DNA of 32,658 nt from a virus: positions 1-32,658 of IMG/VR virus record IMGVR_UViG_3300009285_001064. The stretch is one strand, 5' to 3'. Below are positions 2,133 through 23,547 of the stretch, in pieces. The position numbers and the translations under genes are program-made. How positions within the stretch are numbered: position 1 is the first letter of the stretch; each line of letters starts with the position of its first letter. The notes under the pieces are model-generated. The model saw only the letters and a program-made list of their open reading frames with translations. It searched no databases and had not been told where the DNA came from.

Positions 2133-3859
2133 ACTTGGCAACGATGAAACACATGCTCATTCTGATGCTAATGTTTCCGTCTCTGGCGTGCAGTCAGATC
2201 ATTTTCGGCCACAGGGTCAACCGTCAGGCATCGGCGGGAAACCCGGACAGCCTGACCGCAGGGGACTACATCGTTACAGACGACGCAGAGTTGACAACAG
2301 CTCTCGCAGCAGCCGGGGCGGGGGATACGGTGCTTCTGCGCGCAGGGACGTACACCGTGGCACTTGCGCCTTCGGGAGAAGGGGCCGAGGGAAACCCGTT
2401 GGTGTTTTCAAGCTACGGCATGGAGGTCTGTAGTCTCTACACCTCGACCAGTGCGGTCAGTTTGTCGGGGCAGGATTACGTTTACATCCAGGGGCTAAGG
2501 CTGAGGACTTCACCCGAGTGTACCGGGCCGGTTGTGGCTCTCGTAGACGCTCATCACAACATGATAAAATCCTGTCGGCTGTGGGGAGGGTCTACATTCG
2601 ATGACCCTTTATCCTATGGGACGGCGAATGCAGTTGAACTTGACAGTTCAAACTACAATCGGATACTCAGATGCAGGCTTGACAGACTTGATACGGCGAT
2701 AACGGCAGATGAAAACAGGGGAGAGGGTTTTTTTGTCGGGCAGGCATCGTACTACAACATTCTTGAACAGGACACGGCAGTTCATGTCAGTCATTTTGCT
2801 TTTGTCGTGCCGAGGGGTCCGGCGACGAATCAGGATGAAATTTCCATGCGGCATACAACGAGAAACATCGTTCGGAACTGCATAGCATACGATTCTCACG
2901 TGGGATTCGGCTCAACGGACTATGCAAACGGAGTGATGTTTGAAGCCTGTACCGGATACTCTCCGGGGTTAGCGAATACCTACCGTGACGGGCTTGCGTT
3001 TGAGGGCACGTCAAGAAACGGTATCTATCGGTTCAACAAATGGTATAGAGATTCGGTGGCCACGGTCGTTCCGACTAATATCGAAGCAACCAATTCTGTT
3101 TCAACCCAATCGTGGGGAGGGGTGAACTGGAACAATAGATACTACCATAACGCTTTCATGGGCGGCGTGATGACCGTACCGGAGAAGATGTCTGCGTTGC
3201 ATCTGATTAACGATTCAGGGGATCAGGATTCTCTCGGACGAGATGTCTTTGTCAACAACATCTTCACCACGTACCGAGCACATGGCGTATGTCTGAAATG
3301 GCAAGAGGCCGGGATATTGGTCCCCGATACGTTCAGAAATAATCTGATGTGGGGCGGTGCTGTTGGTGACACGCTAGGGGAGAGTGACCCCGGAGGCCCG
3401 CAGTACATAGCCACGATGCAATCCGGTGCTTCGCATGGATTAATGCTTGAGGCGACAAACTTCGAGGCTTCGCCGCTCTGGGTGGACTCTAACTCTGTTA
3501 GGGAGGCGAGGTCGTTTGAGCTTTCAGCTTCTTCGCCTTGCGTGGATGCTGGCGTAGCGTTGACTCTCGTTGCAAGTGGATCGTCGGGAACGTCAGTCAC
3601 TGTCGGGGATGCAGGATATTTCCACTACGATTGGGGCGCGAGTCCTTACGACCGGGGAGATTCGGTTTTGATCGGTACCGATAGGCGGGAGATTGATTCT
3701 GTAGACTACACAAACAATAGACTACTTTTGACCGGGGCCGTGACGGTTTCTGCGGGAGTGGAAATCCATATCATAGCTACTTGGTCTCATGTTTCAGACG
3801 CATACATCCCGAGACTGTACGGCTCGGCTCCGGATGTCGGACCGTACGAAAAACCATGA
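2129..3859 (+). CDS. Secreted right-handed beta-helix protein (pectate-lyase-like fold)
   Basis: The product is 576 aa from the ATG at 2129, overlapping the previous stop; an internal ATG at 2144 is an alternative start. The N-terminus is a signal peptide with hydrophobic core HMLILMLMFPSLA and a likely cut near C-S-Q. The body shows repeated coils typical of parallel beta-helices (YIQGLRL, NMIKSCRLWGG, NRILRCRLD, NILEQD, NIVRNCIAY), and it ends in DVGPYE, common at the end of such proteins. Beta-helices in tail loci often bind or cut polysaccharides (family knowledge). I cannot assign catalytic residues, so depolymerase activity is only inferred. The gene overlaps the next by ATGA. Confidence 0.65.
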   Translation: MNLATMKHMLILMLMFPSLACSQIIFGHRVNRQASAGNPDSLTAGDYIVTDDAELTTALAAAGAGDTVLLRAGTYTVALAPSGEGAEGNPLVFSSYGMEVCSLYTSTSAVSLSGQDYVYIQGLRLRTSPECTGPVVALVDAHHNMIKSCRLWGGSTFDDPLSYGTANAVELDSSNYNRILRCRLDRLDTAITADENRGEGFFVGQASYYNILEQDTAVHVSHFAFVVPRGPATNQDEISMRHTTRNIVRNCIAYDSHVGFGSTDYANGVMFEACTGYSPGLANTYRDGLAFEGTSRNGIYRFNKWYRDSVATVVPTNIEATNSVSTQSWGGVNWNNRYYHNAFMGGVMTVPEKMSALHLINDSGDQDSLGRDVFVNNIFTTYRAHGVCLKWQEAGILVPDTFRNNLMWGGAVGDTLGESDPGGPQYIATMQSGASHGLMLEATNFEASPLWVDSNSVREARSFELSASSPCVDAGVALTLVASGSSGTSVTVGDAGYFHYDWGASPYDRGDSVLIGTDRREIDSVDYTNNRLLLTGAVTVSAGVEIHIIATWSHVSDAYIPRLYGSAPDVGPYEKP

Positions 3860-4137
3860 AACGGAAACGCCCAATGACCCAGATCACATATACCCGATTG
3901 GACGAAAAGCTGGACAAGGTTCTCACTACTATCGGCGAGGTCAACACGGCAGTTGGAGTGTTGAGGACTCACCGAGAGCATGACTGCGAGAGGCTTGAAG
4001 AGATAGCGATCGCGGTGCAAAAGACGGGCGAGAAGGTCAACCGGAACTCGAAGAAGATCGCATGGATCATCGGAGTGGGGTCAGGCATTTCGGGTGGCGG
4101 TATGTTTGCGGCGGTCAAATCGTGGTTAGGGTTGTAA
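3856..4137 (+). CDS. Small membrane-anchored protein, XhlA-like layout
   Basis: The product is 93 aa from an ATG overlapping the beta-helix stop; MTQITYTRL at 3874 is an alternative start. About 60 polar, charged residues with helical and probably coiled-coil character (LDEKLDKVLTTIGEVN, then CERLEEIAIAV) are followed by one C-terminal hydrophobic segment (IAWIIGVGSGIS to the end). Haemolysin XhlA-type proteins beside holins have this layout, so a lysis accessory role is plausible. The assignment rests on architecture and position, not on a recognised sequence motif. Confidence 0.5.
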   Translation: MKRKRPMTQITYTRLDEKLDKVLTTIGEVNTAVGVLRTHREHDCERLEEIAIAVQKTGEKVNRNSKKIAWIIGVGSGISGGGMFAAVKSWLGL

Positions 4138-6575: not shown

Positions 6576-6604
6576 TTGACAATACCCGAAATGTTCTTTA
6601 CCGT
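6576..6604 (+). promoter_or_regulatory. Sigma70-type early promoter
   Basis: A perfect -35 (TTGACA, 6576-6581), a 17-base spacer and TACCGT (6599-6604), which keeps the three most conserved -10 positions. An AT-rich stretch at 6548-6562 could act as an UP element. The predicted transcription start falls at about 6610-6612, at or next to the ATG of the first early gene, implying a leaderless or nearly leaderless mRNA. Confidence 0.55.
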
Positions 6605-6609
6605 TGACT

Positions 6610-6792
6610 ATGGCAAACAAGATCAGTAGACAAAGACGCTGGCAGATCGAGCGCAAGGTTCTCGGCCTCTGTACCCGCTGCGGGAAGAAAAGCGACGGGT
6701 ACGGTTGGTGCCCCGACTGCCGGAGAAAACGCAGAGAGCGTTACCGCCTCAGAGTCACCCTACCACCAATCCAGCAGGAGGACACGCCATGA
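6610..6792 (+). CDS. Small zinc-ribbon protein
   Basis: The product is 60 aa. It carries C-x2-C (CTRC) and a second C-x2-C (CPDC) 14 residues later, followed by a very basic stretch (RRKRRERYRLR), so it probably binds one zinc ion and perhaps nucleic acid. I chose ATG 6610 over the in-frame TTG at 6604 because neither has a Shine-Dalgarno site and the promoter geometry puts the mRNA 5' end near 6610. It is first in the early operon and ends in QEDTP because its tail is read through the ribosome-binding cassette of the next gene. Confidence 0.55.
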   Translation: MANKISRQRRWQIERKVLGLCTRCGKKSDGYGWCPDCRRKRRERYRLRVTLPPIQQEDTP

Positions 6793-9189: not shown

Positions 9190-9523
9190 AATGATCCCCT
9201 CACGGTTTCTCAAAAGGGGAGACATCGGCGTAGGGCAGCTTTACACAATCAAGAACGTTGAATTGGTGACGTTCAACGAAGGCAAACCCGAAGAGGAATC
9301 GAGGTGGGTGATCCACTTCACCGAAACCGAAAAGGGAATGTCTTTGAACAACACGAACATCAAGCTGATCGAAAAGATCACCGGCTCCGACAACACGGAT
9401 GACTGGATGGGGAAGTCTATCGTTTTGTACTGGGATGACACGGTGGACTACATGGGCCAGATCGTCGGCGGGATTCGTGCCCGCGCACCGAAGTCACAGG
9501 CGGAGAAGGATCTCCCGTTCTAA
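9173..9523 (+). CDS. Conserved phage recombination-locus protein, probable OB-fold
   Basis: The product is 116 aa from ATG 9173, preceded by CGGAGGCAAAGG. Its pattern (MPRTSEMIPSRFLK; WVIHFTETEKGMSLNNTN; GSDNTDDWMGKSIVLYW; GGIRARAP) matches, from memory, an uncharacterised phage family found beside annealing proteins and exonucleases. The beta-rich layout suggests an OB-fold that could bind single-stranded DNA; this is inference. It follows the nuclease and precedes a structured intergenic element. Confidence 0.6.
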   Translation: MPRTSEMIPSRFLKRGDIGVGQLYTIKNVELVTFNEGKPEEESRWVIHFTETEKGMSLNNTNIKLIEKITGSDNTDDWMGKSIVLYWDDTVDYMGQIVGGIRARAPKSQAEKDLPF

Positions 9524-9530
9524 GTAATTC

Positions 9531-9586
9531 GCCGGGGCACTCCGCAACACTTGCGGAGCAAGCGAGTTCCTCCCTCGCGCCCCGGC
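9531..9586 (+). ncRNA. Candidate three-way-junction RNA element
   Basis: Three perfect helices nest in 56 bases: P1 GCCGGGGC (9531-9538) with GCCCCGGC (9579-9586), P2 CTCCGC (9540-9545) with GCGGAG (9553-9558), and P3 GCGAG (9562-9566) with CTCGC (9574-9578). The P3 loop reads TTCCTCC, complementary to a Shine-Dalgarno site. There is no T-run after P1, so it is not a simple terminator. It lies in the 141-base gap between the probable ssDNA-associated gene and the NinB-like gene. Confidence 0.5.
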
Positions 9587-9617
9587 CTTCACATCAGGAC
9601 GCTGTTGGTGGCAGCGT

Positions 9618-9642
9618 GGGGCGGGAGAGCGTGCCCCGCCCC
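9618..9642 (+). other. GC-rich hairpin before the NinB-like gene
   Basis: GGGGCGG (9618-9624) pairs with CCGCCCC (9636-9642) around an 11-base loop, 22 bases before the ATG at 9665. It leaves the ribosome-binding site AAAAAGGAAAC free. It may act with the upstream junction as a leader structure. Confidence 0.45.
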
Positions 9643-9664
9643 GTACCTGAAAAAGGAAACGACA

Positions 9665-10084
9665 ATGAGCAAACGAGTTTTAGCATCTGGCAGATTTGAG
9701 AACGGAACGGTCCGGTTCAAGAAGCGCGAGCACTTTGACGCTTGGCTCAAGCGCGAGTTCCGTGAGGGCGAGGACGTAATGGTGACTGTCCAAAAATCCA
9801 CACGGACGCTGAGACAGAACGCCCTGCTTTGGTTGTATAACACAATGATCGGTAGGGAGCTTGGCTGGACACCCGAAGCCGTCCACGAATACGACAAGGG
9901 GAGAATCAACCCGGAGCATCTGACCCGGACAAACCCAAAGACCGGCGAGTTGATTGAGGTCAGTGTTCCACGCACCACGCATGATATGCCCCTAGATGAG
10001 TTTACTGAGATGCTCGATGAGAAGAAGAGGTTGTGGGCTGAAGAGGGCTACATACTCCCCGATCCTAACGACATGGATTTCTAA
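9665..10084 (+). CDS. NinB/Orf-like recombination protein
   Basis: The product is 139 aa from ATG 9665, preceded by AAAAAGGAAAC. The segment VMVTVQKSTRTLRQNALLW followed by a helical part and VSVPRTTHDMPLDEFTEML matches the layout of lambda NinB (Orf), a recombination mediator that binds single-stranded DNA and helps load annealing proteins (family knowledge). The size is near the usual ~145 aa. It sits between the ssDNA-associated and DUF1064 genes, in keeping with a recombination role. The assignment is by pattern memory; similarity beyond the core is weak. Confidence 0.6.
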   Translation: MSKRVLASGRFENGTVRFKKREHFDAWLKREFREGEDVMVTVQKSTRTLRQNALLWLYNTMIGRELGWTPEAVHEYDKGRINPEHLTRTNPKTGELIEVSVPRTTHDMPLDEFTEMLDEKKRLWAEEGYILPDPNDMDF

Positions 10085-10447
10085 ATGTACCGCGAAAAGA
10101 AATGGAAATACGCTAAGACGCGGACGAAGTACAGGAACAAGCCGCAGGACGCGGGCGGGTATACCTATCATTCAATCAAAGAAGCGAAGTACGCTCGTGA
10201 TCTTGAACTGCGAAAGAAGGCGGGGGACATCAAGGACTGGGCGCGTCAGGTGAAGATTGAGCTCTACGGAGAGAATGGCGGACATATTTGCGACTACCAC
10301 GTAGACTTCCGCGTTGAGCACAACGATGGCACGATTGAATATGTCGAGGTGAAGGGTTTTGAGACGCGGGACTGGCGCATAAAGTGGAAGCTCTTTGAGG
10401 ACAAGATGCGCGACAAACATGATGTTACACTCACAATCATTCGTTGA
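10085..10447 (+). CDS. DUF1064 family nuclease-like protein
   Basis: The product is 120 aa, starting immediately after the upstream TAA. It shows KYRNKPQDAGGYTYHSIKEAKYA, an LRKKAGDIKDW segment, CDYHVDFRVE and IEYVEVKGFETRDW. This is the DUF1064 arrangement, related to Holliday-junction-resolvase-type PD-(D/E)xK nucleases, with catalytic residues expected in the E of SIKEA, D of YHVDF and ExK of VEVKG. It probably acts on branched DNA or as a nickase. The gene's last codons and stop lie inside a 28-base perfect palindrome. Confidence 0.75.
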   Translation: MYREKKWKYAKTRTKYRNKPQDAGGYTYHSIKEAKYARDLELRKKAGDIKDWARQVKIELYGENGGHICDYHVDFRVEHNDGTIEYVEVKGFETRDWRIKWKLFEDKMRDKHDVTLTIIR

Positions 10448-10467
10448 AGTATATATACTTCAACGAA
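10440..10467. promoter_or_regulatory. 28-bp perfect palindrome
   Basis: TTCGTTGAAGTA (10440-10451), TATA, then TACTTCAACGAA (10456-10467): a perfect dyad with no mismatch, overlapping the TGA of the DUF1064 gene and ending 20 bases before the next ATG. As DNA it looks like an operator for a dimeric repressor. As RNA it would form a 12-bp hairpin. No T-run follows, so termination is unlikely. Confidence 0.7.
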
Positions 10468-12933: not shown

Positions 12934-13122
12934 ATGACTGACATCAACGCAACCGTTAACCTGATCGTTTACGCAGTCCTCTGGGTTGCCTGCGGAGGTC
13001 TCTCCGGGGCACTCGCCGGCGTGAAGGGGTTTGACAAGACCACCTGGTTCATGGCGGGCCTGTTCTTCGGCCCCGTGGGGTTGATCGCAGCTGCGGGGTT
13101 GCCGGACAGGAGGGCGAAATGA
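12934..13122 (+). CDS. Two-span small membrane protein
   Basis: The product is 62 aa from an ATG preceded by AGGAGAACAATCC. Hydrophobic segments LIVYAVLWVACGGLSGALAG and WFMAGLFFGPVGLIAAAGL are separated by VKGFDKTT, and the tail is basic (DRRAK). Gly-rich double-span proteins of this type are common in phages and bacteria without a known role. It overlaps the next gene by ATGA. Confidence 0.5.
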   Translation: MTDINATVNLIVYAVLWVACGGLSGALAGVKGFDKTTWFMAGLFFGPVGLIAAAGLPDRRAK

Positions 13123-13538
13123 AAGCACTCGCGGTTATAGCCCTTTGCCTGCTAGCCCTTCCTCTCCGCGCGGATGTGACCGTGGGACATGGCCTATCGG
13201 GGTTCGCCCTTTCTGCGAGCGTTGCGAAGCTCTCCGGGTGCGACAATCAAACCTCGAGGGTGATCGGCATTGTCGGCGGGATCCTCGGGATGTTGCCCGA
13301 CGTGGCGGGGGCCGTGGGGAACGTCCAGGGGGATAGATGGCAGACATACGGCAGGTGGCACCGAGGAGACCTGGCCATTTCGTTCCTGCCGCCGATTCGG
13401 TTGCACCTGGCCATAGACGGTCTCTACCACAAGCCGGGAGGCGGGTGGGCCTGGGATCGCTGGCCGCTATTCGTCACGATCTTCGTCGTTGAAGCTGTAC
13501 TCGCGTATCTGGTGTGGCAGTGGACGGCGGGAAAATAG
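13119..13538 (+). CDS. Exported or inner-membrane YdjM-like protein
   Basis: The product is 139 aa with a signal peptide or N-terminal anchor (MKALAVIALCLLALPLRA) and a C-terminal membrane segment (LFVTIFVVEAVLAYLVW). Between them, GHGLSGFAL, GGILGMLPDV, WHRGDL and LHLAIDGLYH place His and Asp residues much as in the YdjM-type membrane metal-dependent hydrolases, so a metal-binding envelope protein is possible. Similarity is by pattern only. It is the last gene before the 512-base region that carries a strong promoter. Confidence 0.45.
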   Translation: MKALAVIALCLLALPLRADVTVGHGLSGFALSASVAKLSGCDNQTSRVIGIVGGILGMLPDVAGAVGNVQGDRWQTYGRWHRGDLAISFLPPIRLHLAIDGLYHKPGGGWAWDRWPLFVTIFVVEAVLAYLVWQWTAGK

Positions 13539-13541
13539 TCC

Positions 13542-13571
13542 TTGACAAGTGCGCCCCTTTTTTCGTATCAT
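13542..13571 (+). promoter_or_regulatory. Strong sigma70-type promoter
   Basis: TTGACA (13542-13547), an 18-base spacer and TATCAT (13566-13571): perfect -35 and five of six -10 positions. It is the strongest promoter by eye in the window and starts just after the stop of the YdjM-like gene. It would produce RNA from about 13578 into the helix-rich region and the methyltransferase operon. Confidence 0.75.
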
Positions 13572-13578
13572 GTAGGGA

Positions 13579-13648
13579 GAAAGGAAGTCATGGGAAACGA
13601 GATTCAACATATTGTGCCCCGGCGAGCCGTTCGCCCCGTCTTCCTTTC
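13579..13648 (+). other. Helix that would bury the ribosome-binding site
   Basis: GAAAGGAAG (13579-13587) pairs perfectly with CTTCCTTTC (13640-13648), enclosing GGCGA (13621-13625) with TCGCC (13631-13635). The 5' strand is the Shine-Dalgarno region of the ATG at 13590, so the fold would block its translation, or the region is a non-coding RNA domain. Confidence 0.45.
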
Positions 13649-13880
13649 ACGTGACGGTGTTTCCCTATCGGACGGACGGTTCATCGGGGCTCACTATTTT
13701 TACGCGGCACGGCTCATTCAGGGTCGTGCCGCTTTCGTTATGGGAATGAGATCGCCCAAATCAAAAGGATCGAAATGTGCTCAACGTGCCGGTACAGATT
13801 CGTCTCTGACTCAATCCGTGGAGTTGCCGGACGCGAGGTATAACATGAAGAGGTTTGTTGTGACGGGTTCTCTTTCTTAG
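13590..13880 (+). CDS. Doubtful 96-aa frame inside the helix-rich region
   Basis: The frame starts MGNEIQHIVPRRAV with GGGAG ten bases upstream and is Arg/Ser/Gly-rich. It resembles no family. It contains two perfect RNA stems (13579-13648 partly, 13704-13732) and lies between a strong promoter and a 150-base inverted-repeat domain, so it may not be translated. A second frame across 13740-13820 gives a CSTC motif with no good start. I list it so that the region is not left blank; a non-coding RNA is at least as likely. Confidence 0.25.
   Translation: MGNEIQHIVPRRAVRPVFLSRDGVSLSDGRFIGAHYFYAARLIQGRAAFVMGMRSPKSKGSKCAQRAGTDSSLTQSVELPDARYNMKRFVVTGSLS
13704..13738 (+). terminator. GC-rich hairpin with short T-tract
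   Basis: GCGGCACG (13704-13711) and CGTGCCGC (13725-13732) form an 8-bp stem with a 13-base loop, followed by TTTCGTT. It could terminate part of the transcription from the promoter at 13542, giving an RNA of about 160 nt, or be one helix of a larger RNA. Confidence 0.4.
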
Positions 13881-14030
13881 CCGGACTTGCTCTCCCGTAA
13901 ACTTGGAATCGCGGCGATTCTGGGTTTATAACCAACACGACAGACTGAATCGCGATAGCCGCCTCAAATAAAAGTCAGCATCTTTTCGGGATTCGCCTCG
14001 GACTCGTATCCAAGAAAAGAGCAAGTCCGG
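13881..14030 (+). ncRNA. Candidate structured RNA closed by a 13-bp helix
   Basis: CCGGACTTGCTCT (13881-13893) and AGAGCAAGTCCGG (14018-14030) are exact reverse complements 124 bases apart. Inside, 13897-13911 and 13915-13929 form a 15-bp stem with four G-U wobbles and a CGG loop (core GAATCG/CGATTC). A further hairpin joins TTTTC (13983-13987) with GAAAA and GGAT (13989-13992) with ATCC (14008-14011); it overlaps the closing helix by one base. G-U pairs argue for selection on RNA, not only on palindromic DNA. It ends 20 bases before the ATG at 14051, so it may be a leader element of that operon or a free RNA. No known class was recognised. Confidence 0.6.
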
Positions 14031-14050
14031 ACTATGGGAAAAAGGAACAC

Positions 14051-14314
14051 ATGACAGCGAGCATGGAGGATTTGATCAGTAGGCGGGTACGGTCAATGTA
14101 TGCCTTGGCTCGTAAGCGAGGCGTTACACATGAGGAGGTTTTGGGGTTTATTGAAAAGGAGTATGGGGTGGAGTCGTCACTTAAACTTAACATTGAACAG
14201 ATCGATCGCGTGCGGGCAGTACTGAGAGTGCTGCAGGTTGTGGATAAAAGCAAACGCCCACCCGTTGTTCACAAGGTGCATGAGTGGAGGAAAGAGTGCC
14301 AAAATCAAGAATAG
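14051..14314 (+). CDS. Hypothetical helical protein
   Basis: The product is 87 aa from an ATG preceded by GGGAAAAAGGAACAC. It is charged and helical (SMEDLISRRVRSMYALARK, THEEVLGFIEKEYGV, NIEQIDRVRAVLRVLQVV). The pattern resembles the short C-terminal helical domains of phage recombination proteins, but no name is justified. It is the first gene downstream of the structured RNA region and overlaps the next. Confidence 0.45.
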   Translation: MTASMEDLISRRVRSMYALARKRGVTHEEVLGFIEKEYGVESSLKLNIEQIDRVRAVLRVLQVVDKSKRPPVVHKVHEWRKECQNQE

Positions 14315-14664
14315 CTCACTACGAAATGTGTCGCGTGTTTAAGAGTCTATATGAGGAGAAGTTCGGCGGGTTCTACTGCATCACCCCCGTGGATGCGAAG
14401 ATGGCGCATGAGTTCTGGGTATTAAACGGTGAGCTTGTAGAGGAACAAATCAGGCCGTATGTGATGAACTTCTTTGCTGATGAATTTGAAGGTTGGAGTC
14501 AACGTCGCTGGCCTGCCTGGCTGTTCTTCAAGCACTTCAATTCGTTCGCTCCGAGAATCGAGAAGCCGGCGGCGAAGGTCGGCCAGCATACACACGAGTT
14601 GGTGATCCACTGCACCCGTTGCAACAGAAACCACAGAGCAGACGGAGACTGTGAAACACCTTGA
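14296..14664 (+). CDS. Hypothetical protein with C-terminal CCHC-like tail
   Basis: The product is 122 aa. GTG 14296 is preferred because GGAGG lies five bases upstream; an in-frame GTG at 14284 would place that site inside the gene. The body is aromatic-rich (KFGGFYCITPVD, FFADEFEGWSQRRWPAWLFFKHF), a layout seen in small phage proteins of unknown role. The end, CTRCNRNHRADGDC, has C-x2-C-x3-H-x5-C spacing close to a zinc knuckle and is encoded by the repeated module also present at 15417 and 16198. It overlaps the cytosine methyltransferase start by 14 bases. Confidence 0.5.
   Translation: MPKSRIAHYEMCRVFKSLYEEKFGGFYCITPVDAKMAHEFWVLNGELVEEQIRPYVMNFFADEFEGWSQRRWPAWLFFKHFNSFAPRIEKPAAKVGQHTHELVIHCTRCNRNHRADGDCETP
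14615..14659 (+). repeat. RNHRAD junction repeat, copy A
   Basis: About 42 bases, core CCACAGAGCAGACGGAGA, matching copy C (16198-16240) with about four mismatches. It codes CNRNHRADGDC at the end of the 122-aa protein and contains the GTG start of the next gene. Confidence 0.8.
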
Positions 14665-15460
14665 TCTTTTTTCCGGCATTGGTGGTTTCGCCCTTGCATG
14701 CTCTTGGGTGTGGGGCGAAGAATATGAAAACGTAGGACACTCGGAGGTTGAGCTGTATGCGTGTAAAGTTTATCACAGACATTTTCCAGAATCGGAGTGC
14801 TTGGGTGACATCACGAAAATCAACTGGGCAGAAGGGCAGGCTGATCTCATCACCGGGGGATTCCCATGCCAGCCCCATAGTCTTGCAGGAAAACGTAGAG
14901 CAAGTGCAGATGAGCGGGATTTGTGGGGGGAGTGTGTTAGAGCCATACGCACAGTACGACCCAGATACGCACTCCTTGAGAACGTTCCAGATCTGCTTAG
15001 TTCTGAACGAGGGGGATTCTTTAACAGGGCCCTTAGTGACCTGGCAGCGGCAGGGTATGATGCGTGGTGGGAAGTTGTTTCGGCGTGCGCCGTTGGTGCG
15101 CCACACACACGGGAGCGGGTGTGGATTGTTGCCCACCCCAACGAAGTCAGATGGGACTTCACCGCTCAAGCAAACTTTACGGAAGGAAGAAACCTGGGAA
15201 ACAATATCCAGCCTTACAGGAAAAATTGTTGCCATGCAGCTTGGGTTGACTGGGAAACAGAATCTATCTCCAAAGAATTGGGTGGTGAACCCCTTATTGA
15301 TCGAAAGAATGATGGGCTACAGGGATGGGTGGACAGAGACGCAGGGCTTGGAAACGCAATCGTCCCCCAAGTGGCATTTGTAATTCTCGACGCAATCCGC
15401 AGGGCAGATGCCATGACCCGCTCGAACCGTAACCACAGAGCAGATGAGGAATGCAAATGA
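14651..15460 (+). CDS. DNA cytosine-5 methyltransferase
   Basis: The product is 269 aa from GTG 14651. All main motifs are present: I DLFSGIGGF (5-13), IV GFPCQPHS with catalytic Cys73, VI LENVP (109-113), VIII GAPHTRERVWIVA (149-161) and X GLGNAIVPQV (232-241). The variable target-recognition part between VIII and X is only about 70 residues, so the enzyme is short, probably with a simple target. It probably protects phage DNA from restriction. Its last residues, SNRNHRADEEC, come from the repeated junction module. A second long frame (14757-15383) overlaps most of the gene. Confidence 0.9.
   Translation: MKHLDLFSGIGGFALACSWVWGEEYENVGHSEVELYACKVYHRHFPESECLGDITKINWAEGQADLITGGFPCQPHSLAGKRRASADERDLWGECVRAIRTVRPRYALLENVPDLLSSERGGFFNRALSDLAAAGYDAWWEVVSACAVGAPHTRERVWIVAHPNEVRWDFTAQANFTEGRNLGNNIQPYRKNCCHAAWVDWETESISKELGGEPLIDRKNDGLQGWVDRDAGLGNAIVPQVAFVILDAIRRADAMTRSNRNHRADEECK
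14757..15383 (+). CDS. Overlapping frame inside the cytosine methyltransferase gene
   Basis: The frame is +1 relative to the methyltransferase, open for 208 codons from ATG 14757, with GGAGG nine bases upstream. The predicted protein has YAQYDPDTHSLRTFQ, a GMMRGGKLFRRAPLVRHTHG stretch, GSGCGLLPTPTKSD and MGYRDGWT followed by LETQSSPK. From memory these match a common phage-encoded family with W-K/R-T-S-Q, G-S-G-x-L-P-T-P-T and MGxPxGWT motifs, often annotated as or near DNA methyltransferases. Each motif lies opposite a methyltransferase motif (VI, VIII, X). It may be a real overprinted gene, or a family created by reading methyltransferase genes in the wrong frame. Confidence 0.45.
   Translation: MRVKFITDIFQNRSAWVTSRKSTGQKGRLISSPGDSHASPIVLQENVEQVQMSGICGGSVLEPYAQYDPDTHSLRTFQICLVLNEGDSLTGPLVTWQRQGMMRGGKLFRRAPLVRHTHGSGCGLLPTPTKSDGTSPLKQTLRKEETWETISSLTGKIVAMQLGLTGKQNLSPKNWVVNPLLIERMMGYRDGWTETQGLETQSSPKWHL
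15417..15459 (+). repeat. RNHRAD junction repeat, copy B
   Basis: The most diverged copy. AACCGTAACCACAGAGCAGA is shared with copy C, but the Cys codons are lost (it codes SNRNHRADEEC). It forms the end of the cytosine methyltransferase and holds the start of the next methyltransferase. Confidence 0.75.
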
Positions 15461-16197
15461 TCGAGGATATGCTCGGCAAAATCTACTGCGAGGATTGTCT
15501 TGAGACCATGAGCCGGATGGAGGACAAGTCCATTGATCTGATTGTAACAAGCCCACCCTACAACATGGGGGGAAAGTCCTTGGGTTGTCATCCAAGATCA
15601 ACCATTGGGGACAGATTTTATTCTGCGTATTCCGACAACCTATCATCTGATGAATACGTGGATTTCTGCCGGAGGGTGATTATGGAATCGCTTAGGGTGT
15701 CACGGTATGTCTTCTGGAACGTTCAGTGGACGGAAACAACGCGATATGCGGTTCACGACATCCATAAGACGTTCAGCGAGAACATGAAAGACATATTCGT
15801 TTGGCACAAGCAGGCTGTTGCGCAAATCGCTCGCGGTCGAACCGCGAGCGGACACGAGTTTGTATTTATGCTCGGAGAGAATGGGAACCGGAACTTCGCC
15901 TACCACAACTTCCCTGACAATGGATATGTCCCAAATATCCAAACGTGGTACAAGAAGGAGTCGTTCCGGGAGCACCACGCAACATTCCCCGTGGAGTTGC
16001 CACTGTACTTTGTCGAATACTTCACAAAGCCTAATGATATTGTCTATGACCCGTTCTTAGGGTCTGGGACTACCGCAGTGGCTTGTGAACGATTGCACCG
16101 CGAATGGATAGGGTCAGAGATAGACCCAGCATACGTCACGCTTGCCGAGAAGCGAATTGCCGCCGAACGCGCACAGATGAAGATGGTGTTCAAGTGA
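15457..16197 (+). CDS. DNA amino-methyltransferase (TSPPY type)
   Basis: The product is 246 aa. ATG 15457 overlaps the upstream stop and has GAGGA at a fitting distance; ATG 15451 is too close to it. Catalytic motif TSPPYN (31-36) is near the start and SAM-binding DPFLGSGTT (198-206) near the end, again beta-type order. TSPPY occurs in N4-cytosine and some N6-adenine enzymes, so the base is undecided. Compact size and no nuclease partner suggest an orphan protective enzyme. It is the third methyltransferase within 5 kb. Confidence 0.85.
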   Translation: MIEDMLGKIYCEDCLETMSRMEDKSIDLIVTSPPYNMGGKSLGCHPRSTIGDRFYSAYSDNLSSDEYVDFCRRVIMESLRVSRYVFWNVQWTETTRYAVHDIHKTFSENMKDIFVWHKQAVAQIARGRTASGHEFVFMLGENGNRNFAYHNFPDNGYVPNIQTWYKKESFREHHATFPVELPLYFVEYFTKPNDIVYDPFLGSGTTAVACERLHREWIGSEIDPAYVTLAEKRIAAERAQMKMVFK

Positions 16198-16265
16198 TCC
16201 GTTGCAACCGTAACCACAGAGCAGACGGAGATTGTGACACACTAACAACAGGAGAAACACAATGA
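16194..16265 (+). CDS. 23-residue mini frame carrying the RNHRAD module
   Basis: GTG 16194 overlaps the methyltransferase stop (GTGA) and the TGA overlaps the next ATG, exactly like real genes here. It encodes MIRCNRNHRADGDCDTL plus six residues. It may be a relic left by the repeat at 16198-16240, a translation-coupling linker, or a free zinc-knuckle-like peptide. Too short to decide. Confidence 0.3.
   Translation: MIRCNRNHRADGDCDTLTTGETQ
16198..16240 (+). repeat. RNHRAD junction repeat, copy C
   Basis: TCCGTTGCAACCGTAACC continuing into CACAGAGCAGACGGAG. Closest to copy A. It is the only full copy not attached to a larger protein. A fragment, CCACAGAGCAGAC, recurs at 16542-16554 ahead of the coiled-coil gene. 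Confidence 0.8.
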
Positions 16266-16528: not shown

Positions 16529-16574
16529 CGGGCTCAGTCTGCCACAGAGCAGACCAACAATGCGAGGACAAGCC

Positions 16575-18517: not shown

Positions 18518-18753
18518 CCTGCCAGTACTGTAACCGATCCATGATCCGCCGGGATGCCGTGGGGTCCTACGCCGATGAAGACAGAACCTACATCTGTCGG
18601 TGGTGCTACGAAACGATCCTCCGGGAGAGGGTTGAGAGGATCCACTCGCTCCCCTTTTACCTCCAGCCCGAGACGGTGGAAGAGCGGGCCCGGCTAAGCG
18701 TGATCGAGAATCGTTTGTGGTGGGTTGTGAACAAAAAAAAGTGCTTGCGTTGA
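18514..18753 (+). CDS. Small zinc-finger protein
   Basis: The product is 79 aa, overlapping the methyltransferase by ATGA. It has CQYC and CRWC pairs 25 residues apart (a treble-clef or ribbon type) and a basic, helical tail (VIENRLWWVVNKKK). It is the last gene before the terminase promoter region and could be a late-gene regulator, but that is a positional guess. Confidence 0.5.
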   Translation: MTCQYCNRSMIRRDAVGSYADEDRTYICRWCYETILRERVERIHSLPFYLQPETVEERARLSVIENRLWWVVNKKKCLR

Positions 18754-18774
18754 TACCCTTTATTTGTATATTAT
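18745..18774 (+). promoter_or_regulatory. Promoter before the packaging genes
   Basis: The very AT-rich block TTTGTATATTATAG contains TATATT (18767-18772) and TATTAT (18769-18774). TTGCGT (18745-18750) is the matching -35 at 16 or 18 bases. An alternative is TTGATA (18750) with TATAGG. The start would fall near 18779-18784, at the first base of a hairpin. Confidence 0.55.
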
Positions 18775-18780
18775 AGGGTT

Positions 18781-18869
18781 GGTGACGTAGGCCAACGTTA
18801 CCCGGTTGACATAAGTGGTTAAGGATTCACTCAGCCCGTCCCTCGAGGGGAGACGGGCCTTTTCATTTT
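18781..18869 (+). ncRNA. Candidate small RNA or attenuator leader
   Basis: From the predicted start there is GGTGACGT (18781-18788) pairing with ACGTTACC (18795-18802, one G-U), then an unpaired middle, then a terminator hairpin. GTTGG (18778-18782) with CCAAC (18792-18796) is a competing fold. Promoter plus two hairpins plus terminator in under 130 bases is the design of a small RNA or an attenuated leader. Confidence 0.45.
18834..18869 (+). terminator. Intrinsic terminator before the terminase genes
   Basis: GCCCGTC (18834-18840) pairs with GACGGGC (18852-18858), with an inner CCTCGAGG palindrome in the loop, followed by CTTTTCATTTT. It is the best rho-independent terminator by eye in the window. 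It would stop early transcription or the short RNA described above, so late genes would need read-through or antitermination. Confidence 0.65.
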
Positions 18870-18958: not shown

Positions 18959-19339
18959 TTGAACGAGAAACGCAAATATGCAAAACGCGGGCTTGCCCTC
19001 CGGGCCGTACTCGATACCCCCGAAGGGCAGCTTGTGTATTTGGCACAGCTCAACCGGGAGCTGATGGCCGGGAAGATCAAACCGGACCTTGCCCGCACGT
19101 CCGTGTCGATCGTGGATGCCGCCCGGAGGGTGCTTGAGTTCCGCGATGGCCAGAAGATCAAAGTCGATCACTCCGGGACAATCGGTCTCCGAGCAGCAGA
19201 CAAATGCTTTGACCGCGTTTTTGGCAACGGTCAAACGCCGGATGCTGAGCTACCAACTGGCGTGGATCCTGGACCGGAGCCGGATGCGGGTGTGGCGCAA
19301 GGGCCGTCAGATCGGCGGATCGACGGCGATAGCGTTTGA
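18959..19339 (+). CDS. Small terminase subunit-like protein
   Basis: The product is 126 aa from TTG 18959, or longer if joined to the upstream 17-aa frame. Helical, basic N-terminus (EKRKYAKRGLALRAVLD), LNRELMAGKIKPDLA and TSVSIVDAARRVLEFRDG followed by KVDHSG resemble TerS proteins, which bind the packaging site on DNA and start packaging with TerL. Position directly before TerL supports this. The last ~65 residues overlap the TerL frame and are low-complexity, so the true end may be functionally unimportant. Sequence evidence alone is moderate. Confidence 0.5.
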   Translation: MNEKRKYAKRGLALRAVLDTPEGQLVYLAQLNRELMAGKIKPDLARTSVSIVDAARRVLEFRDGQKIKVDHSGTIGLRAADKCFDRVFGNGQTPDAELPTGVDPGPEPDAGVAQGPSDRRIDGDSV

Positions 19340-20429
19340 ATGCGTATTCGAGGCGGGTATCCGGGGCGTTGATTGCCTGATCTGCTCAGCCGCAGAGAAA
19401 AACGCACAGGAGGTATTGAGCAAGTGCCGCGGGTTTGTCGACGTAGCAAGGGCCGCCGGGCTGGATTTGAAACTCACTACGGATGCAAGGGGTGAGCTTG
19501 GATTTGCAAACGGTAAGAAAATTCTCTCGCTGGCCCAAAACCCTGCTACCGTCCGCGGCTTCACCGGACACCTCTACCTCGATGAGTTTTCCCACCATCC
19601 TCAGGACCATTTTATCTACCAGGCGGGTATGCCTGTTGTCACTCGTGGTCATCGTTTGTCTGTACTGTCTACGCCTATGGGCCAATCGGGGGAGTATTAC
19701 AAGTGCTGGCAAGAGCGACCAGACTTCTCCCGGCATGATACAAACATCCTCGCCGCTGTTGACGCGGGACTCTGTGTTGACGTTGAACTCCTCAGACGCA
19801 ACATGGATGACGAGTCCTTCCGACAGGAGTACCTTTGTGAGTTCATCGACGAGTCATCGGCCTACTATCCATACGACCTCATTCGAGGCGCAATCGGGGA
19901 CTGTCCAGAGGACAGCGGGGCACGCCATCTCGGTATTGATGTCGGGCGAAAACGAGACCTCACGGTGCTATACACTGTGGGACAACTAAACGATATGCAC
20001 TACACTGTTGACGTTGATGTGTTGGACCGCCAGCCGTTTGACGTGCAGAGGATGGCGATAGTCAGCAAGGCTCAACGGTACAACGTCCAGAGCATAGCGA
20101 TTGACGCGACGGGGATTGGTGCACAGCTTGCAGAGCAGATACAGGGTGACATTGCAGGGGTCGAGGCCGTAGTGTTCAACGAGCAGAACAAGCGCGACAT
20201 GGTGATCGGCGTGAAGCGTGCGCTTGAGGCCAGGCGGTTGCAGATTCCCGACGACCCGAAACTGATCGGTGACATACATTCCATCCGTCGTACAGTCACG
20301 GCGGCCAATAACGTGAGGTTCGACGCGGAACGGACGGCAGAGGGTCATGCCGATAGGTTCTGGGCTCTCGCTCTTGCGATGAGAGCAGCATCGGATCGGA
20401 GCGGATTCAGGGTACTGTTCGAGTGCTAG
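19146..20429 (+). CDS. terL: Large terminase subunit
   Basis: The product is 427 aa if started at ATG 19146; ATG 19242 is an alternative, and neither has a good ribosome-binding site. ATPase motifs: a deviant Walker A, RKGRQIGGST (51-60), with Lys early and no GK[S/T], as in some terminases; Walker B LYLDEF (143-148); coupling motif STPMG (175-179). The RNase-H-type nuclease has acidic residues in LGIDVGRKRD, SIAIDATGIG and HADRFW. It drives DNA into the prohead and cuts it. It overlaps TerS by 194 bases in another frame. Confidence 0.85.
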   Translation: MARRSKSITPGQSVSEQQTNALTAFLATVKRRMLSYQLAWILDRSRMRVWRKGRQIGGSTAIAFECVFEAGIRGVDCLICSAAEKNAQEVLSKCRGFVDVARAAGLDLKLTTDARGELGFANGKKILSLAQNPATVRGFTGHLYLDEFSHHPQDHFIYQAGMPVVTRGHRLSVLSTPMGQSGEYYKCWQERPDFSRHDTNILAAVDAGLCVDVELLRRNMDDESFRQEYLCEFIDESSAYYPYDLIRGAIGDCPEDSGARHLGIDVGRKRDLTVLYTVGQLNDMHYTVDVDVLDRQPFDVQRMAIVSKAQRYNVQSIAIDATGIGAQLAEQIQGDIAGVEAVVFNEQNKRDMVIGVKRALEARRLQIPDDPKLIGDIHSIRRTVTAANNVRFDAERTAEGHADRFWALALAMRAASDRSGFRVLFEC

Positions 20430-20431
20430 CT

Positions 20432-21772
20432 ATGAAGCCATTGGAGATCAAGACCGCCGTCATCACTCCCTACATGCTCGAGCAGTACGTCTACGAGCAC
20501 AAAAACAGAGTCCTCACGACGGCGGATGCTTTCAACACGGTGCCCTTGATTTACCGGGCGGTCCGCCTCAGGTGCAATGCGTTGGTCAGGGTCCCCAGGT
20601 ATATTTATCCCCTGGGGTCAGACGAGCCGATTGACGAGTATCCGTTTGAGGACACGCTGCCCCTCAGGTCGTGGCTTTGGCTGACCGAGGCTGCGCTGTT
20701 GCTCAGGGGTGCGAGCTTCACGGTCCGGCTGATGAACGAGTCCGGGAGAGCTACAGGAGAGATACAGTTCATCAATCCATTCACGGTGTCAATGGGCAAA
20801 TCCCGGAATGGATCGCTCACGTTCAAACAATCCGTTGACGGTCAGACTCGTGAGTGGTCCGAGGAGGAGATGTTCTACGTCCGGGACTACGCGCCGGATT
20901 CCGACATTGGGTTCGGGACGTGCCCAACTGAGGTAGCTTTGGGATCGGCGCAGCTCCAGCATTACGTCACGCGGTTTGCGTCGAAATTCTTTGAGTCGGG
21001 GGCGATGCCGTTTGTTGCGTTGAGTCTCCCTCCGGGAGTCGGAAAGGCCGAGCAAGACCGGGTCGAGGGATTCTTCAAACGGGCGGTCGGGGGGATCAGG
21101 AATGCGTTTCGGGTTGTGGCCGTATCGGGGGAGATAAAGCCGACGATCATTACTCCGCCGATCAACACGCTGGACCTGCCCGGCGTGAAACTGACGGCTG
21201 TCGAGAATGTCGCGTGGGCATTCGACATTCCCAAAACGATCCTCACGGCTGACTCTGCAAACAGAGCTACAGCAGACACGGAGTACAAGATTTTCACGGA
21301 GGAGACAATCCTCCCGAGGTGCGAGTTCATGGAGTCGGTGCTCAATCCGTTCCTGGCAGAGTACGGGGTTGAGATTGCGTTTGCTCCGGAAGAGTTGACG
21401 GTGATGCAGGAGGACGAGAACCAGAGGGCGGAGGCGTTTTCGACTTACGTAGCTGCCGGGATGAACCGTGACCTTGCGGCGGAGATGCTGGGGATTGACA
21501 TACCAGAGACGTACAAGGGCGAGAGGTGGGACGAGAAACAAGCCGACCCGGTGAAGCCTGACCCGGTGAAACCGAAGCCGCAGCTACAGGCCGAGGCGGA
21601 GATGAAGAAGTGGATGAAGAAAGCGCTCAAGCGGCTGCAGGAGGGGAAGGCTGCTCAAGTCGAATTTGAATCAGACGCATTGCCGGATGAACTCAAGAGC
21701 GTGACGTTTAACGCTTTGGCAATCGCAAAGAGCGAGGACGATGTGAAACTCATATTTCGAGGTGCGCGATGA
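20432..21772 (+). CDS. Portal protein, HK97-type
   Basis: The product is 446 aa. ATG 20432 is used; GTG 20423, overlapping the TerL stop, is possible. FNTVPLIYRAVRLRCNALVRVP at the start, AALLLRGASFTVRLMNESG, FYVRDYAP, a SGAMPFVALSLPPG loop and the VENVAWAFDIPKTILTAD segment are typical of Phage_portal (HK97 gp3-like) proteins. It forms the dodecameric ring for DNA entry and tail attachment. The C-terminus carries a Lys/Pro-rich duplication (DPVKPDPVKPKP). It overlaps the protease-capsid gene by ATGA. Confidence 0.85.
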   Translation: MKPLEIKTAVITPYMLEQYVYEHKNRVLTTADAFNTVPLIYRAVRLRCNALVRVPRYIYPLGSDEPIDEYPFEDTLPLRSWLWLTEAALLLRGASFTVRLMNESGRATGEIQFINPFTVSMGKSRNGSLTFKQSVDGQTREWSEEEMFYVRDYAPDSDIGFGTCPTEVALGSAQLQHYVTRFASKFFESGAMPFVALSLPPGVGKAEQDRVEGFFKRAVGGIRNAFRVVAVSGEIKPTIITPPINTLDLPGVKLTAVENVAWAFDIPKTILTADSANRATADTEYKIFTEETILPRCEFMESVLNPFLAEYGVEIAFAPEELTVMQEDENQRAEAFSTYVAAGMNRDLAAEMLGIDIPETYKGERWDEKQADPVKPDPVKPKPQLQAEAEMKKWMKKALKRLQEGKAAQVEFESDALPDELKSVTFNALAIAKSEDDVKLIFRGAR

Positions 21773-23547
21773 ACGATGACATGCTGTGTGCTTACGGCTC
21801 CGAGGTCAAGGCTGGTGAAAACGGACACCTGACGGGATTGCTGGTGAGATTCTCCGGGCCCGAGTCTCCGGATTCCACCGGAGACTACTTCACATCCTCA
21901 ACCGATTTCGGCCTTGAGAATGTGTCGAAGGTTCCCCTGTATTTCCACCACACCCTCCCATTGAAGAGCCGCGCCGGGAAACGGATACAGGTCAAGGAGC
22001 AGATCGGTGAGGGGACGTTGAGCCTGGCGGAGGAGGGTATCCTGATTGATGCCATCATGTACAATCACTCCCGGTACAAGGCGGCGATAGAGAAGGCCAT
22101 CAAAAGCTTGGGCTGGTCTTCCGGATCGGCTCCGCATCTAGTCGAACGTGAGGTTGTCGGGAAAGCGACGCACATCAAACGCTGGCCCCTGGGGTTGGAC
22201 GCTTCTCTCACACCGACTCCTGCGGACATCAAAAACGTGGTAGAACTCAAGAGCATTGACATTGAATCAGACATTGAACTGGAACCGGAGGCCGGGGCAG
22301 AGGGCAGCAATGCCGCCGCGGCGGTGCCAGAAACAGAACCAGAAACCAAACCAAACGAGGTAGAGATGACAAAGGAAGAGTTGGAGAAGGCTGTAACCGA
22401 TCAGGTCGCCGCCGAACTCGAAGCCCGCAAGGAAGCGGAGAAGAAAGCAGCCGAAGACAAGGCCGCTTTCGACGCTGCTGTTGCGGACGGGGTGAAGGCC
22501 GCGACCGACAAAACGGCGGTCAACGGCGGGATCAAATCGGCGAACCTGAACCTGAAGGCTCCGAAGGGTGACGACGCGAACACCGCGATGAACCACTGGA
22601 TCAAAACCGGTGACAACGGTGGATTGCGTGCGAACCCAGCCTACAAAACAGACTACAATCTGTTGGGCGGGACGCAGTATCAGGGGCAGGAACTCGTGCC
22701 GACTGAGATCATCAACCGCATCTGGGAGTTGCGTCAGCCGCTCTCGATTGCGCGGGCAGCCGGAGCGATGGTGATTCCGGTCGGGAGCCGGACGGCGTGG
22801 GTGCCCGTCGAAAAGATCGCACCTGAGGTCTGGGTGGTGACGGCAGAGGAGGCGTCGTATGACCTTCCCTCGGCTCAGCCCTTGGACAAGAAGATCGTGT
22901 CGATCCAGAAGTACACCCGGACGGTCAATATTGCGGAGGAGCTGATCGAAGACTCCGTGGTGGACATTGTGCCGTGGTGGGAGAACTACATTGCTCGTGG
23001 ACTCGCCCTGACGGAGAATCAGGAGTTCTTGATCGGCGATGGAACGAGCAATGCTCTGGGGATTCACACCGTGACGACCGGCCACACGGCTGGCGTTACG
23101 GCTGCATCTGCAACAGCGGTGACGGGGCCGGAGATTATCCAGCTTTACTACAGTCTCCCGGCTGAATACCGTGGCGGGAAGGTCGCATGGACAATGGCTC
23201 CTGCGACCGAGGCTGCAATCCGTGGACTCCAGGCATCTGATTTCTCGTTCCTCCCGACACCTGCAGGTAATGGCGGGTTGGCTCAGGGGACGGGGTATCT
23301 GGTGGCCTCGAATGCTGCGGTGTACAACTCCGGGTCGTGTCCGGCAGCAACCGCTGCGTTGATCCCGATTGTGGTCGGGAACTTCGAGGCGGGGTATGTG
23401 ATCTGCGAGCACCGAGGGATGACGGTCATGCGTGATCCGTTCTCCGGTGCATCGACGGGTCAGCTCAAGCTCCATGCGTCGGCTCGGTTTGGCGGGACGG
23501 TTGCAAACGTCCTGGCATTCCGGGGTCTGACAATGGCCACGGGCTAA
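21769..23547 (+). CDS. Fused prohead protease, scaffold and major capsid protein
   Basis: The product is 592 aa in three parts. Residues 1-160 resemble HK97-type prohead proteases: YFHH with the likely catalytic His, LGWSSGSAPH with the likely Ser, and LDASLTPTPAD. Residues ~160-255 are acidic then Ala/Glu/Lys-rich coiled coil, like a scaffold (delta) domain. Residues ~270-592 read as an HK97-fold major capsid protein (LVPTEIINRIWELRQPLS, an NIAEELIEDSV stretch, a CEHRGMTVMRDPFS stretch). Self-cleavage around 255-290 is expected to release the capsid subunit. No separate capsid gene exists here. Confidence 0.8.
   Translation: MNDDMLCAYGSEVKAGENGHLTGLLVRFSGPESPDSTGDYFTSSTDFGLENVSKVPLYFHHTLPLKSRAGKRIQVKEQIGEGTLSLAEEGILIDAIMYNHSRYKAAIEKAIKSLGWSSGSAPHLVEREVVGKATHIKRWPLGLDASLTPTPADIKNVVELKSIDIESDIELEPEAGAEGSNAAAAVPETEPETKPNEVEMTKEELEKAVTDQVAAELEARKEAEKKAAEDKAAFDAAVADGVKAATDKTAVNGGIKSANLNLKAPKGDDANTAMNHWIKTGDNGGLRANPAYKTDYNLLGGTQYQGQELVPTEIINRIWELRQPLSIARAAGAMVIPVGSRTAWVPVEKIAPEVWVVTAEEASYDLPSAQPLDKKIVSIQKYTRTVNIAEELIEDSVVDIVPWWENYIARGLALTENQEFLIGDGTSNALGIHTVTTGHTAGVTAASATAVTGPEIIQLYYSLPAEYRGGKVAWTMAPATEAAIRGLQASDFSFLPTPAGNGGLAQGTGYLVASNAAVYNSGSCPAATAALIPIVVGNFEAGYVICEHRGMTVMRDPFSGASTGQLKLHASARFGGTVANVLAFRGLTMATG

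Follow-up and report, generated by a model that had tools for sequence, protein, structure and literature searches.

A putative promoter-proximal Shine-Dalgarno switch at the head of an exchangeable gene cassette in a tailed phage

Does a strongly folded region directly behind a phage promoter encode a structured RNA in its own right, or does it control the genes that follow? This question is raised by a locus in the stretch of DNA analyzed here (hereafter the window), which is an entire IMG/VR record of 32,658 bases from a tailed phage. A sequence-only reading had proposed two possibilities, a new type of large phage RNA or a leader that controls a methyltransferase operon. Based on the folding and comparative analyses described below, the locus appears to switch translation of its own genes and does not look like a novel non-coding RNA class. 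Our tentative model, a promoter-proximal Shine-Dalgarno (SD) switch carried on an exchangeable cassette, is given a probability of about 0.45.

Results

A conserved promoter precedes an exchangeable cassette

Packaging and head genes were recognized in the window (terminase, 19089-20429; portal, 20423-21772; major head protein, 21769-23547), and full-length relatives of the terminase among viral contigs, phages, and genomes are mostly ∼25-37% identical. The locus is flanked by a 139-aa frame (13119-13538) on one side and by several small genes and DNA methyltransferases in succession on the other; in the best explanation, it forms the 5' end of a cassette of accessory genes, together with their promoter. 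When viral contigs were scanned with the ORF126 protein, a relative, L055 (IMGVR_UViG_3300009285_000432, 29.9 kb), was found in which this protein is 87% identical. ORF126 was the sole query that retrieved a useful relative: ORF96 and ORF87 found nothing among the viral contigs, and TerL, portal, and methyltransferase queries found just distant or gene-only relatives in which the region is missing. Searches of phages or plasmids with the ORF96, ORF87, and ORF126 proteins gave no match, and a DNA similarity search of phages and plasmids returned 0 matches to the region. Conservation was thus judged from a single relative. The framework of the locus is as follows.

13542-13571, plus strand: sigma-70-type promoter, TTGACA-N18-TATCAT, 11/12 match to consensus, kept in L055
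13572-14296, plus strand: exchangeable cassette, without counterpart in L055
13590-13880, plus strand: ORF96, probable small protein, function not assigned (SD; open-frame P 0.02)
14036-14053, plus strand: ORF87 SD plus start, with 83% identity to 13575-13592
14051-14314, plus strand: ORF87, product function not assigned

The strong promoter that had been proposed from the sequence is present and ranks best among 9 promoter-like sites in a consensus scan of 19 kb. L055 and this phage are mosaic with respect to each other, sharing DNA blocks that are 68-94% identical (most of them at least 78%). The promoter block at 13530-13568 is conserved at L055 3415-3453, with CTTGACAAGTGNNNCCCTTTTTTCGTAT exact in both phages, and the similarity then ends at the -10 region and restarts at 14297, inside ORF126. 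In place of 13572-14296, L055 contains a frame of 40 aa (3489-3611), which overlaps an HNH-like endonuclease (3608-4120; Pfam HNH, E 0.00056, just below the curated cut-off), and further frames. Because the promoter is kept and the segment behind it is replaced, we conclude that 13572-14296 is an exchangeable cassette behind a fixed promoter. This segment had no homologue at the DNA or protein level in the phages, plasmids, viral contigs, and genomes searched. A kinship of ORF96 with the 40-aa frame of L055 was considered and dropped, as no convincing alignment was seen by eye.

The replacement of this segment also bears on the proposed new RNA class. Since the segment is absent from L055 and replaced there, the proposed RNA of 470 nt is not one that phages conserve; this result, the lack of any homologue, and the finding of no terminator-like site between 14030 and ORF87 all argue against a novel class of large phage RNA. 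When Rfam was searched at gathering and relaxed thresholds, no credible family was found in the window or in L055, and the single match in the window was mir-341, which scored 25 bits where 90 are required. The earlier remark that no known RNA class was recognized agrees with the covariance-model search, in which none reached the gathering threshold. Of the two ideas, the operon leader is the better one: leader control is favored, but the cassette is headed by ORF96 and ORF87 and not by the methyltransferase itself.

ORF96 had been called doubtful. It directly follows an SD and the promoter, and 95 codons are open from its ATG (P 0.021); its codon score is intermediate, its codon pattern is flat, and an AlphaFold model made without an alignment was uninformative (pLDDT 33). 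ORF96 is most likely a real 96-aa frame under the control of the leader.

The leader is predicted to close and reopen the SD of ORF96

The predicted elements of the leader, and a later stretch that can pair with either SD, are listed below.

13579-13587, plus strand: arm A, GAAAGGAAG, the SD region of ORF96 (growing-transcript accessibility)
13609-13697, plus strand: long B:B' hairpin whose apex includes A' (fold; inverted repeat)
13640-13648, plus strand: arm A', CTTCCTTTC, the anti-SD, a perfect complement of arm A
13704-13732, plus strand: hairpin of 12 pairs followed by TTTCGTT, a possible weak attenuator
13869-13878, plus strand: second pyrimidine stretch, which can pair with either SD (ORF96 or ORF87)

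The 9-bp helix covering an SD and the 8-bp hairpin at 13704 that had been described from the letters were both recovered, the first as the perfectly complementary arms A and A' and the second as 8 Watson-Crick pairs that extend to 12 when G-U pairs are counted. By itself, the A:A' helix is weak evidence, with a P of 0.03 and a rank of 6 among 43 gene starts. Compared with shuffled controls, the fold of 13578-13740 has a z-score of -4.62 on the plus strand versus -1.79 on the minus strand, and that of 13575-14050 has a z-score of -3.44. The elements of the predicted transcript appear in the order A (with the SD, at the very 5' end), B, A', and B'. In window transcripts that end at ∼13650-13670, the probability that the ORF96 SD is unpaired is near 0, and the formation of B:B' in silico lifts it to about 0.65-0.7.

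The corresponding leader of L055 (3458-3620) is unrelated in sequence and has a z-score of -5.66 on the plus strand versus -3.68 on the minus strand. In both leaders, the SD and ATG come first and are followed by a long hairpin with the anti-SD at its tip, and both have the order A-B-A'-B' with the SD inside A. The L055 A:A' pairing, CTACGCG-(AAACC)-AATAGGAGACGG versus CCGTCTCCTATTCGCGTAG, is a 19-bp bulged helix (shuffle P <0.001), and the B:B' hairpin (3500-3586) contains A' in its apical part. When growing transcripts were folded, the accessibility of the SD in both leaders changed from open to <0.05 at ∼80-110 nt and then to ∼0.65-0.7 near 120-130 nt, and reopening coincided with the completed B:B'; in L055, the SD partly recloses beyond ∼140 nt. 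This open-closed-open course was reproduced with 3 assumed start sites per leader.

Among shuffles that preserved the SD region, the same course was seen in 1/480 and 1/200 for the window (about 0.3%) and in 6/480 and 1/200 for L055 (about 1%), figures that somewhat overstate the case because the statistic was devised after both sequences had been seen. None of the 42 other gene starts in the window (0/42) showed the course when a transcript start was assumed 12 nt 5' of each ATG. The comparison comprises two leaders that share layout and not sequence, and the folding of truncated sequences leaves out ribosomes, pausing, and proteins. Single-sequence folds alone do not prove function (PMC8250186); here they are helped by strand specificity and by a second, unrelated leader, and covariation is missing.

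From these features, we infer the following sequence of events. Transcription from the promoter would produce arm A first, containing the SD and the start of ORF96, and then B, A', and B' in turn. While the polymerase advances, A would pair with A' and the SD would be hidden; once B' is made, the B:B' hairpin would form, A' would be trapped in its apex, and the SD would be freed, so that ORF96 could be translated. An RNA function, which had been proposed for the whole region, is likely for this promoter-proximal part, where the fold is plus-strand specific and the layout recurs in L055.

If the leader folds were instead fortuitous or compositional and had no regulatory role, the locus would be an ordinary promoter with ordinary small genes (ORF96 and ORF87) on a newly acquired cassette. 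Such a reading is in keeping with the SD and improbable open frame of ORF96, with the modest standing of the 9-bp SD helix on its own, and with the weakness of single-sequence folds as evidence (PMC8250186). It is at odds with the plus-strand-specific z-scores (-4.6 and -5.7) of two leaders that share a promoter and are otherwise unrelated, and with the open-closed-open course common to them, and we consider it unlikely, if still deserving of weight.

The same folds could belong to a stand-alone or attenuated non-coding RNA that starts at 13577 and ends either at 13704-13732 (∼160 nt) or past 14030, in which case ORF96 would be spurious. In its favor, no stem in 19 kb is more terminator-like than the hairpin at 13704-13732, which is followed by TTTCGTT; the folds are strong; and the codon pattern of ORF96 is flat, with no homologue found. 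Against these points stand the short U-run after that hairpin, the missing terminator-like site ahead of ORF87, the good SD and ATG at the very 5' end, and the lack of conservation in L055, which together make a non-coding RNA quite improbable. The SD switch is the preferred reading of the leader.

A second folded element separates ORF96 and ORF87

13881-14030, plus strand: second folded element, a 13-bp closing helix with a 15-pair inner stem (13897-13929)

This element had been described as a 13-bp helix closing 150 bases and a 15-bp stem with four G-U pairs, and both descriptions hold. The arms of the helix (13881-13893 and 14018-14030) are 100% complementary inverted repeats. In dinucleotide shuffles, 0.05 perfect 13-bp inverted repeats within 180 nt are expected per window and 1 was seen, and 0.17 stems of at least 15 pairs (G-U allowed) within 45 nt are expected and 2 were seen. 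A 15-pair stem nested in a 13-bp repeat, within the gap between two frames, is well beyond chance. In a z-score scan that took in 786 of 868 stretches of 150 nt (both strands), the one at 13881 came 2nd for its minus strand and 7th for its plus strand. The G-U pairs had been used as an argument for RNA. The pairs are present, but the z-score of 13870-14045 is -4.74 on the minus strand versus -3.97 on the plus strand; because the minus strand folds at least equally well, G-U pairs do not settle the strand here. The arm-gap-arm pattern was absent from the genome and viral contigs, and neither this pattern nor similarity revealed a second copy in the window, phages, plasmids, or viral or genome contigs. 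A 16-mer taken from the inner stem occurred in 13 contigs, approximately the chance number for the size of the collection, with no flanking similarity.

The 13-bp helix starts at the first base past the ORF96 stop codon, and in an outer extension, 13870-13880 pairs with the ribosome-binding region of ORF87. When folded as a full transcript, the ORF87 SD has an unpaired probability of 0.54, which rises to 0.95 when ORF96 is modeled as covered by ribosomes to its stop. Thus, the outer helix could hide the ORF87 SD unless ribosomes reach the ORF96 stop, and the folding suggests that ORF87 may be weakly coupled to ORF96 translation. The element is probably an mRNA processing or coupling structure.

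T7-type intergenic RNase III sites are long stems between the genes of one phage transcript. The element at 13881-14030 shares the long intergenic stems with these sites but exceeds their usual dimensions in its 150-nt size and nested layout. A site for RNase III processing or mRNA stability, in the fashion of T7-type early mRNAs, would fit long stems directly past a stop codon and ahead of the next SD without a terminator, and a similar folded gap occurs at 9523-9664. Any processing here is putative, and the element has no conserved counterpart in L055; we regard this role as somewhat unlikely, though it is a serious candidate.

At the DNA level, the element might be an insertion such as a MITE. 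Its 13-bp terminal inverted repeats are perfect (100%) and each is bordered on the outside by TA, the two strands fold comparably well, and excision would fuse ORF96 in frame to ORF87, an outcome with a chance of 1 in 3. A second copy is lacking from the collections named above, there is no target duplication beyond the TA, and the inner stem depends on G-U pairs, and we hold a mobile insertion to be very doubtful. L055 lacks the whole cassette and hence has no empty site for comparison.

Other features of the genome

A 44-bp repeat, CCGTTGCAACNGNAACCACAGAGCAGACGGAGANTGTGA, is located at the ends of successive genes (14616-14659, 15418-15461, 16199-16242, and 16542-16565) and also occurs in L055 (5700, 6674, 7677, 8184, and 9206). 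It encodes the peptide RCNRNHRADGDC, with a zinc-knuckle-like C-x2-C-x3-H-x5-C. The genes between its copies differ between the phages, with an extra N4/N6 methyltransferase in L055, as if cassettes were exchanged at the repeat. The C5 methyltransferase (14651-15460) matches the relatives L039-L042 in its first 166 and last 40 aa and not in the middle, as expected for an exchanged target-recognition region.

Several other sites were noted. Between a 116-aa frame and a NinB-like gene, 9523-9664 is a folded non-coding stretch with a predicted three-way junction and a second hairpin pair; with 30 shuffles, the z-score of 150 nt at 9531 is -6.35, whereas that of 9510-9690 is -2.6, and 9523-9664 is 91% conserved in L055, though the sequence 3' of it is exchanged. 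Ahead of the packaging genes, 18745-18869 contains a second promoter-like unit, TTGCGT-N18-TATTAT, with a leader of ∼60 nt containing a hairpin and then a good terminator stem (GCCCGTC..GACGGGC followed by CTTTTCATTTT); this unit is 89.5% conserved in L062, terminator included, and resembles an antiterminated late leader. A perfect palindrome with 14-bp arms, TTCGTTGAAGTATA/TATACTTCAACGAA, lies at 10440-10467 at the end of a DUF1064-like gene, and similarity to L055 begins within it, at 10463. A possible early promoter, read by eye, is found at 6577-6611, where TTGACA is followed by a poor -10 (TACCGT); it lies in a ∼190-nt non-coding gap just before a small gene.

Discussion

SD sequestration in phage mRNAs is already well known, and by analogy the leader described here would work like known SD-sequestering leaders, without being claimed as a member of any one group. 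Lambda cIII mRNA has alternative structures (Altuvia et al. 1989, listed among the references of PMC10586365). It reportedly adopts one of two mutually exclusive folds, in which the SD is either accessible or blocked; the folds are in equilibrium, and RNase III takes part in the switch. There is no sequence relation between cIII and this leader, for which an effect of the order of transcription is predicted instead.

Ribosome-binding sites are sequestered in the e, soc, 49, and I-TevI mRNAs of T4 (PMC3014915), and a hairpin of the mobE homing endonuclease gene of phage Aeh1 appears in the reference list of the same paper. Like this leader, these phage mRNAs hold an SD or start codon in a helix; some of them belong to homing endonuclease genes, and L055 has its HNH gene at the corresponding place. 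In T4, the structure is present on the long transcripts made early, and transcripts from a late promoter escape it because they begin within it. Unlike the T4 case, both arms here lie 3' of the promoter, and its transcript would always carry the switch.

Type I toxin mRNAs (aapA3, timP, and hok) also have metastable SD-sequestering hairpins that close the SD during transcription. For aapA3, successive metastable anti-SD hairpins during transcription have been proposed from genetic evidence (PMC6733600), and the timP mRNA has mutually exclusive forms (PMC11228461). Unlike these toxins, ORF96 does not resemble a small membrane toxin, and the state predicted here after B:B' formation is open, not closed. 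A consensus scan for an antisense promoter found no minus-strand promoter-like site at 13000-14700.

GOLLD, ROOL, and OLE are large ornate RNAs, some of them found in phages (PMC12286853). The likeness to this locus is in being long folded RNAs; there is no covariance-model match here, and those classes show conservation of both sequence and structure, but this segment is not kept even in the nearest relative found.

A broader proposal is that the lineage holds one promoter as a landing site and that interchangeable cassettes each bring an independently evolved co-transcriptional SD switch with the order A-B-A'-B'. We consider this extension of the model improbable at present. If the cassette-switch reading is true, the RNA would be a folding timer that delays the translation of newly acquired accessory genes, and selection would act on structure and logic, not on sequence. 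An RNA switch layout would then be selected without sequence conservation and would be invisible to homology-based RNA searches, and this locus would provide a compact, testable model for the translational delay of freshly acquired phage accessory genes.
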